DNA of 64,000 nt from Dongia rigui (GTDB taxonomy: Bacteria; Pseudomonadota; Alphaproteobacteria; Dongiales; Dongiaceae): positions 558,001-622,000 of the forward strand of contig NZ_JAXCLX010000001.1 of the NCBI RefSeq assembly GCF_034044635.1. The letters run 5' to 3'. A program made the position numbers and the translations under genes. Positions 30,144 through 33,399 of this stretch are shown here, piece after piece (position 1 is the first letter of the stretch; every line of letters begins with the position of its first letter). Under the pieces are notes generated by a model. It saw only the letters and a list, made by a program, of their open reading frames with translations. It made no database searches and had not been told where the DNA came from.

Positions 30144-30701
30144 TCAGTCCTCCGCTTCCTTGTTCTCGAAGCGGCGCAGTTCCTCGACGAAACTCAGTGT
30201 CTTCATGTCCGTCATCCGCATCGGATAGAGGATGCCGTCCAAATGATCACATTCATGCTGCACCACCCGGGCGTGGAATCCGCTCGCCTCCCGCTCGATC
30301 ACCGCGCCGTCGGGCCTCAGCGCGCGGTAGCGGATGTGCCGGTATCTGGGCACCATGCCGGCGAGGCCGGGGACCGAGAGGCAGGCCTCGATTCCCGCGA
30401 TCGTCTCCGGCACCAGGGGGGTGATTTCGGGGTTGATCAGGGCCGTCAGCGGAATCCCCGGCGGATTTTCACCCACCACCCCGTCCTCGGCGGCGATGCG
30501 GGCGCCCGGTACGTGGAATATCACCACGCGCAGGGGGACATGGACCTGGGGGGCCGCCAGCCCGGCCCCGCCGATATCCTCCAGCGTGTCGACCATGTCA
30601 TTGATAAGTTTATGAATTTCCGGCGCGGTGGGGTCGGCGACCGGATCGGCGATCCGCTTCAGGACCGGGTGGCCCATACGGGCGATTTTCAGGATGGCCA
30701 T
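30144..30701 (-). CDS. def: Peptide deformylase
   Basis: A 185-aa metalloenzyme removing the formyl group from new proteins. Motif 1 is GGAGLAAPQV, motif 2 is EACLSVP and motif 3 is QHECDHLDG, so all metal ligands (Cys, two His) and the catalytic Glu are present. Motif 2 is normally EGCLS; here Gly is Ala, and motif 3 has Cys in the HExxH middle. Both are tolerated variants in secondary deformylases. It is not next to fmt, the usual partner of the primary def, so this may be a second copy. It is monocistronic. Confidence 0.9.
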   Translation of the reverse strand: MAILKIARMGHPVLKRIADPVADPTAPEIHKLINDMVDTLEDIGGAGLAAPQVHVPLRVVIFHVPGARIAAEDGVVGENPPGIPLTALINPEITPLVPETIAGIEACLSVPGLAGMVPRYRHIRYRALRPDGAVIEREASGFHARVVQHECDHLDGILYPMRMTDMKTLSFVEELRRFENKEAED

Positions 30702-30909: not shown

Positions 30910-31113
30910 GTGCAAGTTCTCGTCCGTGACAACAATGTCGATCAGGCCCTGCGCGCGCTCAAAAAGAAGATGCAGCGCGAAGGGATTTTCCGGGAAATGA
31001 AGATGCGTCGCAACTATGAGAAGCCGTCCGAGCGCAAGGCGCGCGAACAGGCCGAGGCGGTGCGTCGCTACCGGAAGCTGATGCGCAAGCGCATGGAGCG
31101 CGAAGGCTTCTAG
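30910..31113 (+). CDS. rpsU: 30S ribosomal protein S21
   Basis: A 67-aa small-subunit protein. [25 protein letters not shown] is the alphaproteobacterial S21 N-terminus and the rest is Arg/Lys-rich helix. The start is a GTG at 30910; AAAGGAG lies about 13 bases upstream, a longer than normal spacing. Another GTG 11 bases earlier is out of frame. S21 helps mRNA binding during initiation. It is transcribed alone, with strong hairpins downstream. Confidence 0.94.
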
Positions 31114-31145: not shown

Positions 31146-31171
31146 CAGGTTCGACGAGAGAACGCATGATG

Positions 31172-31206
31172 TCGCCCCGCTGGCCCCGCCAGCGGGGCGA
31201 TGCCTT
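31172..31206 (+). terminator. Rho-independent terminator of rpsU
   Basis: TCGCCCCGCTGG and CCAGCGGGGCGA form a perfect 12-bp stem with a CCCCG loop, followed by TGCCTTTTGG. It ends rpsU transcription before the parS site. Confidence 0.7.
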
Positions 31207-31283
31207 TTGGGGAATCTCTCTCTTTCGTCTGCTTCCGGCCACCCCTTGACCCGCGCCGCTGGCCGAGTCTAATGTTCCCGTTT

Positions 31284-31299
31284 TGTTTCACGTGAAACA
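31284..31299. other. parS: parS centromere site (ParB-binding palindrome)
   Basis: TGTTTCACGTGAAACA is a perfect 16-bp palindrome identical to the consensus chromosomal parS sequence bound by ParB (TGTTNCACGTGAAACA). It lies in an intergenic stretch, flanked by T-runs on both sides, between rpsU and the first PAS gene. parAB are not in the window. A chance exact match to 16 specified bases in 64 kb is very unlikely. Confidence 0.88.
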
Positions 31300-31373
31300 T
31301 TTTCCACGCCCCCTTTCTCAGGCGTGTGCAGTTTGTCAGGATGCGGTGGGCGATGACGCGGATGTCGGGGGAC

Positions 31374-31862
31374 ATGATCACGATACAGAACGGGCAGCAG
31401 CAGGAGCCGGCATGGGTGGCGGATGCCAGCGCGAATGTGCAGGCGCTCTATCGCTATTGGCAGGGGAAGCGCGCTGGCGCCGATCTGCCGGCGCGCGCCG
31501 ACATCGATCCCGTGGATATCCCGGCCCTCCTGCCCTATCTCACCATCGTCGAAGTGGTCGCCGATGTGCGGCGCTATGTCTATCGGCTGGTCGGCACCAA
31601 GGAGGTCGAGATTCGCGGCCAGGACCCGACCGGCAAATCGGTGGCAGAGGCCTTTTACGGACCCAATATCGACGAAGCGCACATGTTCTATGACAAGGCC
31701 GTGGCGACGCGCGACGCTGTCTACGACTGCTCGCCTTTCATCGGCCCTGACGGCCGCTACAATGATGACGAGATATTGTTCCTGCCGCTCTCGGACGATG
31801 GTTCCCGTGTCACGCGGATCATCGTCATGGCCCAGTGTTCGCTGACGCCGGAATTCGCATGA
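31374..31862 (+). CDS. PAS domain protein (PAS_5 family), first of a tandem pair
   Basis: A single-domain protein of about 162 aa. VQALYRYWQGKRAGADLPARADIDPVDIPALLPYLTIVEVV and RRYVYRLVGTKEVEIRGQDPTGKSV match PAS_5, an alphaproteobacterial family of small cytoplasmic proteins with no output domain. It probably binds a ligand or partner protein; a Caulobacter relative (MopJ) influences motility and cell-cycle signalling. The start is uncertain: ATGs at 31341, 31353, 31362 and 31374 are all in frame. I chose 31374, which follows a GGGGGAC and is nearest the domain. Its stop overlaps the next ATG. Confidence 0.8.
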   Translation: MITIQNGQQQEPAWVADASANVQALYRYWQGKRAGADLPARADIDPVDIPALLPYLTIVEVVADVRRYVYRLVGTKEVEIRGQDPTGKSVAEAFYGPNIDEAHMFYDKAVATRDAVYDCSPFIGPDGRYNDDEILFLPLSDDGSRVTRIIVMAQCSLTPEFA

Positions 31863-32353
31863 GCGAGGCGGCGCCCGAGCCGGGTCTCGTGGAACCCGAT
31901 TGGCTCGGCGCCTGCGGCAATCTCGTTCAGGCAGTCTATCGCTATTGGCGTTCCAAGGCCCGCGCCGGCCGATTGCCCCGCCGCAGCGACATCGATCCGA
32001 CCGAGATTCCGCGTCTGCTGTCGCATCTGATGATCGTCGAGGTGGTGGAGGACGAGCGGCGCTATGTCTATCGCCTGGTTGGCACCAAGGAAGTGGAAAT
32101 GCGCGGTCGCGATCCCACCGGTCTGTCGGTTATTGACGCCTTCCTTGGCATCTCGGTCGAGGACGCCTTGTGGCATTACGACCAGACGGTCACGACGCGG
32201 GCACCCGTCCATGACGACAAGCCCTATGTCTCGACCAGCGGCCGTTGGGTCAGCGACGATACCCTGTTCCTGCCGCTGAGCGAGGACGGCATCCGCATTG
32301 ATCGGATCCTCGTCGCCGCTGCTGCCGAGCCTTATCCCAAGACGCGGCGCTAG
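31859..32353 (+). CDS. PAS domain protein (PAS_5 family), second of a tandem pair
   Basis: A 164-aa paralogue of the preceding protein. VQAVYRYWRSKARAGRLPRRSDIDPTEIPRLLSHLMIVEVV and RRYVYRLVGTKEVEMRGRDPTG align throughout, pointing to local duplication. The two differ in the second half (VEDALWHYDQTVTTRAPVHDD against IDEAHMFYDKAVATRDAVYDC). Its ATG overlaps the upstream stop (ATGA), so the two are translationally coupled and may heterodimerise. Its stop overlaps the stop of the convergent carboxypeptidase gene by four bases. Confidence 0.85.
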   Translation: MSEAAPEPGLVEPDWLGACGNLVQAVYRYWRSKARAGRLPRRSDIDPTEIPRLLSHLMIVEVVEDERRYVYRLVGTKEVEMRGRDPTGLSVIDAFLGISVEDALWHYDQTVTTRAPVHDDKPYVSTSGRWVSDDTLFLPLSEDGIRIDRILVAAAAEPYPKTRR

Positions 32354-33399
32354 CCGAGCCAAGCCTCGGCGAGGTCCAATGTCTTGGCATCGCAATCCAG
32401 CCGGGCGCGGATGCCCTGGGGCAGGACGAATTGCGGGTCGGTGTGGCCGAAATCCATATTGGTCATGATGGGGAGCTCGGGGCGCCCGAACTCGCCGGCC
32501 ACAACACCGACAATCGCTTCATCCAGCGCCAGCTTGGCATCGGCGTCATAGCGAGCGGGGCGGCCGACCATCAGGCCGGCGATGCGCGCCAGAATCCCGT
32601 CCCTGCCCCAGCCGCGCAGCATGTCCGCCACCAGTTCCGGCCCCGGCGCTTCCTCAGATGTTTCGAGGAACAGCAGTCGGCCATCCCAGAAGTCATCCCT
32701 CTCGGCCCCAGTCGGCGGCCAGAACATCCCACCGCGCAAGCCTTCGAACACGTCGATGCAGCCACCGAACAGCCGGCCTTCGACCGCGCCAGCCCCCTGC
32801 AGCAGGCGCCAGCCTTCGGCTGGGTTGGGATCGTTCACCTGCCCCGCCTTGGCCTGCTGCCGCCAATCCGGATAGCCGTCGCAATAGGCGGCAAAGGGCT
32901 GATAGCGATAGCCGGCCTCGGGCAGGAACAGCATCTCCTTCACATGGGCGGCGTAATCAGGGAGCGCCGACATCTGCGCAAAGCCCGCCATGATGGAGGG
33001 ACCGTGCAAGGTCACAAGCCCCAGGCGCTGGCAGAAGAGATGCAATGTGCTGGTGTCGGAATAGCCCATCAGGATCTTCGGATTGGCCTTGATCACCGCG
33101 GCGTCGAGAAAGGGCAGAATACGATGGCTGTCATCGCCGCCGATCGCGGCGATAATCGCCTTCACCTGCGGGTCGGCGAAGGCGCGGTTGATATCATCGG
33201 CGCGGAGATCCGGCCGGGCCGACAGCTCGGCTGCCGGCATGCGCGCGGTGGGATACTCGACCACATTGAGGCCCCAGCGCTGCAGCAGGCCGAGGCCCAG
33301 TTCATAGATGTGCGGAAACACGCTCGGCCCGCCCCAGGAGGGCGAGACGATGGCCACCGTATCGTCGATATGGAGGCGTTCCGGCTTTAGAACTTGCAT
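32350..33399 (-). CDS. S66 family LD-carboxypeptidase / MccF-like peptidase
   Basis: A 349-aa serine peptidase of family S66. The nucleophile is in GYSDTS (near residue 116). The other two triad members are in LFLETSEEAPG (Glu) and MDFGHTDPQ (His), in the usual order. VAIVSPSWGGPSVFPHIYELG and AIIAAIGGDDSHRIL are typical of the cytoplasmic MccF-like branch. Roles in the family are muropeptide recycling (LdcA) or cleavage of toxic peptide-nucleotides such as microcin C (MccF); sequence favours the latter branch only weakly. Its first codons overlap the 3' end of the monooxygenase gene by 13 bases. Confidence 0.85.
   Translation of the reverse strand: MQVLKPERLHIDDTVAIVSPSWGGPSVFPHIYELGLGLLQRWGLNVVEYPTARMPAAELSARPDLRADDINRAFADPQVKAIIAAIGGDDSHRILPFLDAAVIKANPKILMGYSDTSTLHLFCQRLGLVTLHGPSIMAGFAQMSALPDYAAHVKEMLFLPEAGYRYQPFAAYCDGYPDWRQQAKAGQVNDPNPAEGWRLLQGAGAVEGRLFGGCIDVFEGLRGGMFWPPTGAERDDFWDGRLLFLETSEEAPGPELVADMLRGWGRDGILARIAGLMVGRPARYDADAKLALDEAIVGVVAGEFGRPELPIMTNMDFGHTDPQFVLPQGIRARLDCDAKTLDLAEAWLG

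Follow-up and report, generated by a model that had tools for sequence, protein, structure and literature searches.

A solitary perfect parS palindrome on a chromosome arm of Dongia rigui, far from parAB and kept in part of the genus

Downstream of rpsU in the genome of Dongia rigui stands the palindrome TGTTTCACGTGAAACA, at positions 31284-31299 of the window (the whole stretch of 64,000 nt that was analysed, G000:C1:558001-622000), and its presence raises the question of what a perfect parS site is doing so far from parAB. Its 16 bp, which have no strand, are identical to what we take to be the consensus of the Caulobacter/Bacillus subtilis type of parS. The preliminary description of this DNA had called it a perfect palindrome equal to the chromosomal ParB target, and this is exact. 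By its sequence the site, here called site A, is an ordinary parS; the unusual part is its chromosomal place.

No further match to TGTTTCACGTGAAACA at up to three mismatches occurs in the window. Shuffled versions of the window gave a mean of 0.05 such matches, with at least one match in 5 of 100 shuffles. A scan of the whole genome (G000; 4.66 Mb in 10 contigs) at up to two mismatches returned five places, each listed on both strands because the pattern is palindromic, and none for a reversed-pattern control. Four of the places are exact copies: C1:589284 (site A), C1:2031116, C1:2033219 and C3:544004. The second lies within gidB and the third at the start of gidA, both beside parAB, and the one inexact place (C1:2031951, two mismatches) belongs to the same gidA/gidB cluster (C1:2031116-2033234). 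Rather than the many scattered matches unrelated to the origin that the preliminary description had named as telling against the site, the genome holds four exact copies only, two of them in the parAB cluster. Markov models of order 0-5, trained on 1.13 Mb of G000, predict 7e-5 to 3e-4 exact copies per genome, so the two solitary ones (site A and C3:544004) are not attributable to chance.

The sole ParB above the TIGR00180 cut-off in G000 is P0010 (297 aa; C1:2028976-2029485). An absence of parAB and gidAB from about 31 kb either side of the site had been noted earlier; for parB this is borne out, the only protein above the family cut-off being encoded 1.44 Mb away, and for parA and gidAB it holds in part, these genes lying at the parB cluster, where they were named by eye from the sequence (as were trmE, znu, fusA, rpsJ, secE and the amine oxidase mentioned below). 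The distance of 1.44 Mb from site A to the gidB parS and parAB is independent of contig order because it falls within the single contig C1, and it places site A away from the usual location of parS near oriC.

The position of the origin was represented by parAB together with the polarity of GGGNAGGG, which we take to be the KOPS motif of Escherichia coli. On C1 below 1.86 Mb this motif was counted 14 times forward and 45 times reverse (16 sampled stretches), and right of parAB nine times forward and five times reverse (four stretches), a weak polarity. The forward and reverse counts were 31 and 3 on C2 (10 stretches), 9 and 20 on C3 (nine stretches) and 6 and 3 on C5 (two stretches). On C4 the polarity flips, from 17:3 below 241 kb (five stretches) to 2:15 above (four stretches), and at the flip lies a dif-like sequence (G000:C4:241008) with three mismatches to the typed pattern, the sole such match in the genome. 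GC skew gave little help. The one-way KOPS-like polarity, and a cluster of parAB, gidAB and parS 1.44 Mb off on the same contig, speak against the earlier suggestion that the window is origin-proximal.

How far out on the arm site A lies depends on the joining of contigs. Overlaps of 77 bp between contig ends place the start of tuf at the tips of both C1-left and C1-right, and the end of tuf at the tips of C4-left and C5-left; the rRNA operon contig C7 shares ends with C2 and C4-right. The shared tuf ends are compatible with either pairing among C1, C4 and C5, and the contig order given here is a reconstruction. C1-right carries rpsG and fusA and C5-left rpsJ and rplC; C1-left carries tRNA-Tyr and tRNA-Gly and C4-left tRNA-Trp, secE and nusG. 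C1-right was joined to C5-left, and C1-left to C4-left, because of the gene orders fusA-tuf-rpsJ and tRNA-Gly-tuf-tRNA-Trp-secE, which we presume to apply here, and because the arms are then balanced (about 2.27 and 2.39 Mb). Colinearity with the relatives G001 and G003, backed in part by G006, gave the join of C5 to C3; C3 was joined to C6, and the contigs at the two rRNA junctions were paired, by elimination. If this order is right, site A lies about 63% out towards the dif-like site, and the solitary copy on C3 would be about 0.72 Mb (30%) out on the other arm. The opposite pairing, with which polarity alone is compatible, gives arms of about 4.0 and 0.66 Mb and puts site A about 36% out. 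Under either pairing, the window is not origin-proximal.

The protein expected to bind the palindrome has ParB_N, HTH_ParB and ParB_C domains and aligns over most of its length with the ParB of PDB 6t1f; its closest solved relative is named chromosome-partitioning protein ParB. G000 therefore has a cognate pair at the usual place, a chromosomal ParB and two exact parS at gidB and gidA beside parAB. At four positions that we assume to separate ParB from Noc specificity, including Caulobacter 179 and 184, P0010 matches in R173 and G201 and differs at 179 and 184. Despite the two differing positions, the protein likely reads the parS sequence, because the gidAB sites are intact. Site A is a parS-type sequence, the palindrome of the Noc-binding site (NBS) being presumably ATTTCCCGGGAAAT, and one ParB-family protein in the genome exceeds the cut-off of TIGR00180, the ParB-family model applied. 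A second ParB was considered as the binder and rejected: the match on C3 (G000:C3:374126) is a short, N-domain-like fragment below the cut-off.

The upstream neighbour of site A is rpsU, the gene for ribosomal protein S21 (30910..31113, + strand; PF01165), and before it lies a peptide deformylase gene (30144..30701, - strand), used as the anchor for the locus in relatives. Between rpsU and parS is a terminator-like hairpin with a T-rich tail (31183..31208, + strand), similar in G001, G003 and G004, and between rpsU and this terminator is a 17-bp stretch, TTCGACGAGAGAACGCA (31150-31166), identical in G000, G001, G003 and G004. A short flank, TAATGTTCCCGTTT (31270..31283, + strand), directly precedes the palindrome; its TGTTC...TTT is partly common to G000, G001 and G003, and it is possibly a -10-like element or a degenerate half-site. 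A sigma-70 scan found no promoter above threshold at this flank or at site A in G000. Two genes with PAS_5 domains (PF07310) follow on the + strand. The first (ORF 31326..31862) likely starts at an ATG between 31341 and 31374, and its closest homologues align from residue 20-22; the second (ORF 31835..32353) likely starts at the ATG at 31859. An LD-carboxypeptidase gene (peptidase S66; 32350..33399, - strand) converges on the pair. The PAS_5 family looks greatly expanded: P0001 has 30 matches in G000, and six further members of the genus have 27-43 each.

A search of 21 genomes, mostly draft or metagenome assemblies, located the deformylase gene in 20, and 16 of these loci were read for rpsU and parS (rpsU was recognised by motif in 14 of the 16, not in G014 and G007). 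Three relatives, G001, G003 and G004, are of the same genus as the window genome, the latter two being Dongia metagenome assemblies. An exact parS stands 3′ of rpsU in G000, G001 and G003. The G004 locus has nothing closer than a 4-mismatch string, elsewhere in the stretch, and the remaining 12 of the 16 loci have no parS within four mismatches. Within the genus, four of seven genomes (G002, G004, G005 and G006) are without parS at the rpsU locus, so site A is dispensable.

Where it is present, the 16-mer is conserved beyond its surroundings. All 16 bases are kept in the three pairs formed by G000, G001 and G003, and the identity of the aligned stretch outside them is 66% for G000/G001, 45% for G000/G003 and 50% for G001/G003. 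Other fully identical windows of 16 columns number 51 of 237, 2 of 259 and 7 of 259, respectively, and by eye they fall at the end of rpsU, the 17-bp stretch after it and the terminator. parS is not the sole conserved piece 3′ of rpsU, the terminator and the preceding 17-bp stretch being likewise kept. In G001 (C13:588941) the pair of PAS genes is absent and parS is intact, with rpsU ending on one side and the LD-carboxypeptidase gene ending on the other, two bases from the palindrome. In G000 and G003 the palindrome is 5′ of a PAS_5 gene, and G002, G004 and G006 have a PAS gene after rpsU without parS. A likeness between the downstream flank of site A and the flank of the gidB site was judged to be chance, because in G001 this flank is coding sequence of the LD-carboxypeptidase. 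The other suggestion of the preliminary description, that the site is a remote member of the parS set, gains support from its sequence, its rarity and its conservation between species.

Two more remote sites were found in the close relatives. Site B is exact in both G000 (C3:544004) and G001 (C10:299903), flanked by a znu-type gene (by eye) on one side and by a circularly permuted ATP-grasp gene on the other; a simple ORF caller shows the two as divergent in G000. All 16 bases inside the site are shared, against 62% identity outside, and 5 of 302 other windows are identical. G003 has a decayed form of the site and G004 a half-site only; both were paired by eye, and MAFFT did not line them up. 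Site B lies close to a sequence, GTTATAACATAAC, resembling what we take to be a Zur box. Site C is exact in G001 (C2:138973), where it lies downstream of a Pyr_redox gene and the gid parS is 0.33 Mb away on that contig. G003 has a version with one mismatch (C4:624696) on the same side of the Pyr_redox gene; it lies 2.3 kb off, compared with 0.2 kb in G001, so that the neighbouring gene and a short common flank are what mark it as orthologous. In G000, a version with four mismatches is found at the orthologous place, near C1:1.700 Mb. In G001, sites A and C are each bounded by the 3′ ends of genes, intergenic status throughout being that given by the simple ORF caller. An in-frame TGA listed in the Pyr_redox gene of G003 and G004 is not inside the gene by direct translation.

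In a tree built from three proteins, G000, G001, G003 and G004 group together (93 ultrafast bootstrap), as the pairs G000+G001 (100) and G003+G004 (100), with G002, G006 and G005 outside the clade. G004 itself is without site A and without any remote site at up to one mismatch. Outside the clade, no match closer than six mismatches was found at the site B locus (up to about 600 bp read in G005 and G006; G002, G009 and G015 were left out of this reading), and none closer than seven at the site C locus (up to about 600 bp in each of three genomes). At the loci read, the three remote sites are confined to one four-species clade, and the simplest history is that all three were gained on the branch leading to it and then unevenly lost.

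More widely, all 17 genomes of the family that were examined have parS at up to one mismatch, and seven of them (G000, G001, G003, G006, G009, G013 and G015) have at least one site away from the gid/trmE/par cluster, amounting to nine exact sites and four weaker, single-mismatch sites (13 together). The G009 site is called remote only because its 3-kb surroundings lack the gid/trmE/par motifs used. In each of the other ten genomes, one site was assigned to the cluster from gene motifs, and any others because they lie no more than about 2 kb from it. Single-mismatch sites away from the gid cluster include G006:C1:524527, G009:C15:46712 and G013:C21:940845. G015, an assembly with 6% estimated contamination, has two exact parS inside apparent coding sequences (C12:16075 and C15:15967), the hosts being an amine-oxidase-like reading frame (by eye) and a dimethylglycine-dehydrogenase-like gene; in the protein of the latter, parS encodes YMFHVKHS where a solved relative reads YSYSIQKS. 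Two genomes from other families of the class, G026 and G029, have seven exact parS on six contigs and five on four contigs; six of the seven in G026 lie between called ORFs, and at least one site in G029 is in a gid/par cluster. Dispersed parS may be recurrent in the class.

On the evidence of sequence, site A is likely to be a genuine chromosomal parS that serves as a satellite ParB-loading site out on the chromosome arm. The 16-mer is unchanged in two related species and therefore probably does something there, and site A is probably under selection. The single chromosomal ParB, encoded 1.44 Mb off, would recognise the palindrome, form a closed, CTP-bound clamp on it and slide along the neighbouring kilobases, over rpsU and the PAS genes, where its spreading is plausible. 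SMC condensin would then enter at this locus, and ParA may gain an additional handle there. Site A is perhaps a mid-arm ParB/SMC entry point; as for its purpose, our first guess is that it lets condensin load locally on a long arm. The benefit to the cell, if any, would be modest or conditional; against one stand the lack of all three sites in G004, the decay of site C in G000 itself and the degenerate site B of G003. The amount of ParB loaded at a single site may be too small to be harmful.

An unlikely alternative to a satellite ParB-loading site is that the palindrome is an operator, overlapping the start of a PAS_5 promoter, at which ParB or another protein represses the PAS_5 genes, so that the parS identity would serve the control of nearby genes. 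The candidate PAS start codons of G000 lie 42-75 bp beyond the end of the site, and TTGACC-N18-TAATGT, a -35/-10-like pair, precedes the site; the TGTTC...TTT flank with a similar -10-like hexamer is partly common to G001 and G003, and ParB of Pseudomonas aeruginosa is reported to affect promoters near parS3 and parS4 (PMC5521831). However, the promoter scan at site A in G000 returned no site above threshold, and G001 keeps the palindrome between gene 3′ ends without the PAS genes, which counts against a PAS operator. Conversely, G002, G004 and G006 keep the PAS gene after rpsU without parS. Sites B and C lie by other kinds of gene, and no called gene starts at site C in G001. A constant association with a promoter and a downstream gene is not seen, and a PAS operator was rejected as the common function of the site.

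It is equally improbable that the remote sites are neutral relics, which appeared in one burst, serve no function today and are in the course of being lost. Their retention is indeed patchy, site A being lost in G004, site B degenerate in G003 and G004, and site C reduced to four mismatches in G000. Yet site A is kept at 16 of 16 bases in three species beside freely diverging sequence, site B is exact in G000 and G001, and site C is exact in G001. At the identity seen over the remaining alignment, the probability that a neutral 16-mer stays intact is about 1.4e-3 for G000/G001, 3e-6 for G000/G003 and 1.6e-5 for G001/G003; these values are not independent of one another, and they are raised because the rest of the alignment includes the conserved rpsU and terminator.

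Inversions can move parS, as is generally known, and a rearrangement might have carried an origin-proximal site to the arm, but such a displacement is ruled out by the positions of the loci in G010 and G014 and is given almost no weight here. Both are single-contig genomes of another genus in which the gid cluster holds the sole sites at up to one mismatch. Measured from the gid parS, the deformylase gene already lies at 1.18 and 1.15 Mb, the ATP-grasp gene at about 1.09 and 0.99 Mb in the opposite direction, and the Pyr_redox gene at 0.43 and 0.38 Mb. From these outgroup positions, the loci were already off-origin when the sites appeared, and the surroundings of site A contain no gid or par genes. 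That the palindrome arose by chance, or is a structural element such as a terminator hairpin, is hardly credible: it can pair as RNA, but its fold is not better than that of shuffled sequences (z = -0.37, with 75 of 200 shuffles equally good), the stretch from rpsU to site A holds a distinct, terminator-like hairpin, and two remote exact copies are observed against the very low number expected from the Markov models.

The ParABS parS of the Caulobacter and B. subtilis type comes with a cognate ParB and a gidA/gidB pair by parAB, as in G000, and most parS lie near the origin (as described in PMC5815017 and PMC7333895). Site A differs in being solitary, with no par or gid genes near it. It resembles the distal or scattered parS of B. 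subtilis in being a single site off the main cluster. The eight B. subtilis sites span about 0.75 Mb, compared with distances from parAB of 1.44 Mb and, in the reconstructed contig order, about 0.72 Mb in Dongia; according to PMC8357415, which discusses these eight sites, Smc loading at distal parS would often cause collisions, and a scattered arrangement seems counterproductive and restricted to a few lineages, including Bacilli. P. aeruginosa has extra sites beyond the four nearest oriC (parS5 to parS10), like Dongia, but these are described as carrying double mismatches and binding more weakly (PMC4368675), whereas site A is perfect. In the same species, strains carrying parS at a distance of 1 or 1.5 Mb to the right of oriC reportedly could not be built and propagated (PMC5098823).

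Engineered ectopic parS in Caulobacter provide a further comparison, since ParB is recruited to such a site far from the origin, and a new diagonal appears in Hi-C (PMC5583512). Site A is natural and kept between species, whereas parS3+4 engineered at +1000 kb in Caulobacter are described as causing a marked fitness defect, extra mid-arm parS being disfavoured there (PMC5815017), and it is because of this disfavour that site A matters. Among the matches listed for the literature on remote or distal parS and on Dongia, no report of such a case appears; the tables of Livny 2007 may list comparable sites.

Site A is real, rare, remote and conserved in part of the genus. A perfect parS far out on an alphaproteobacterial arm, kept in three species and absent from close relatives, makes the role of a remote parS directly testable across Dongia. 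Should ParB prove not to bind the sites, or should they be neutral, they would instead illustrate the birth and loss of parS. A bolder reading, which we offer tentatively and consider rather doubtful, is that a clade within Dongia has evolved dispersed, perfect satellite parS on its chromosome arms at which ParB loads condensin off-origin as a part of normal chromosome folding. If true, dispersed mid-arm ParB loading in this clade would contradict the rule drawn from Caulobacter and Pseudomonas that such loading does harm, and a natural experiment would be available in related species, whose exact remote sites number 0, 1, 2 or 3.
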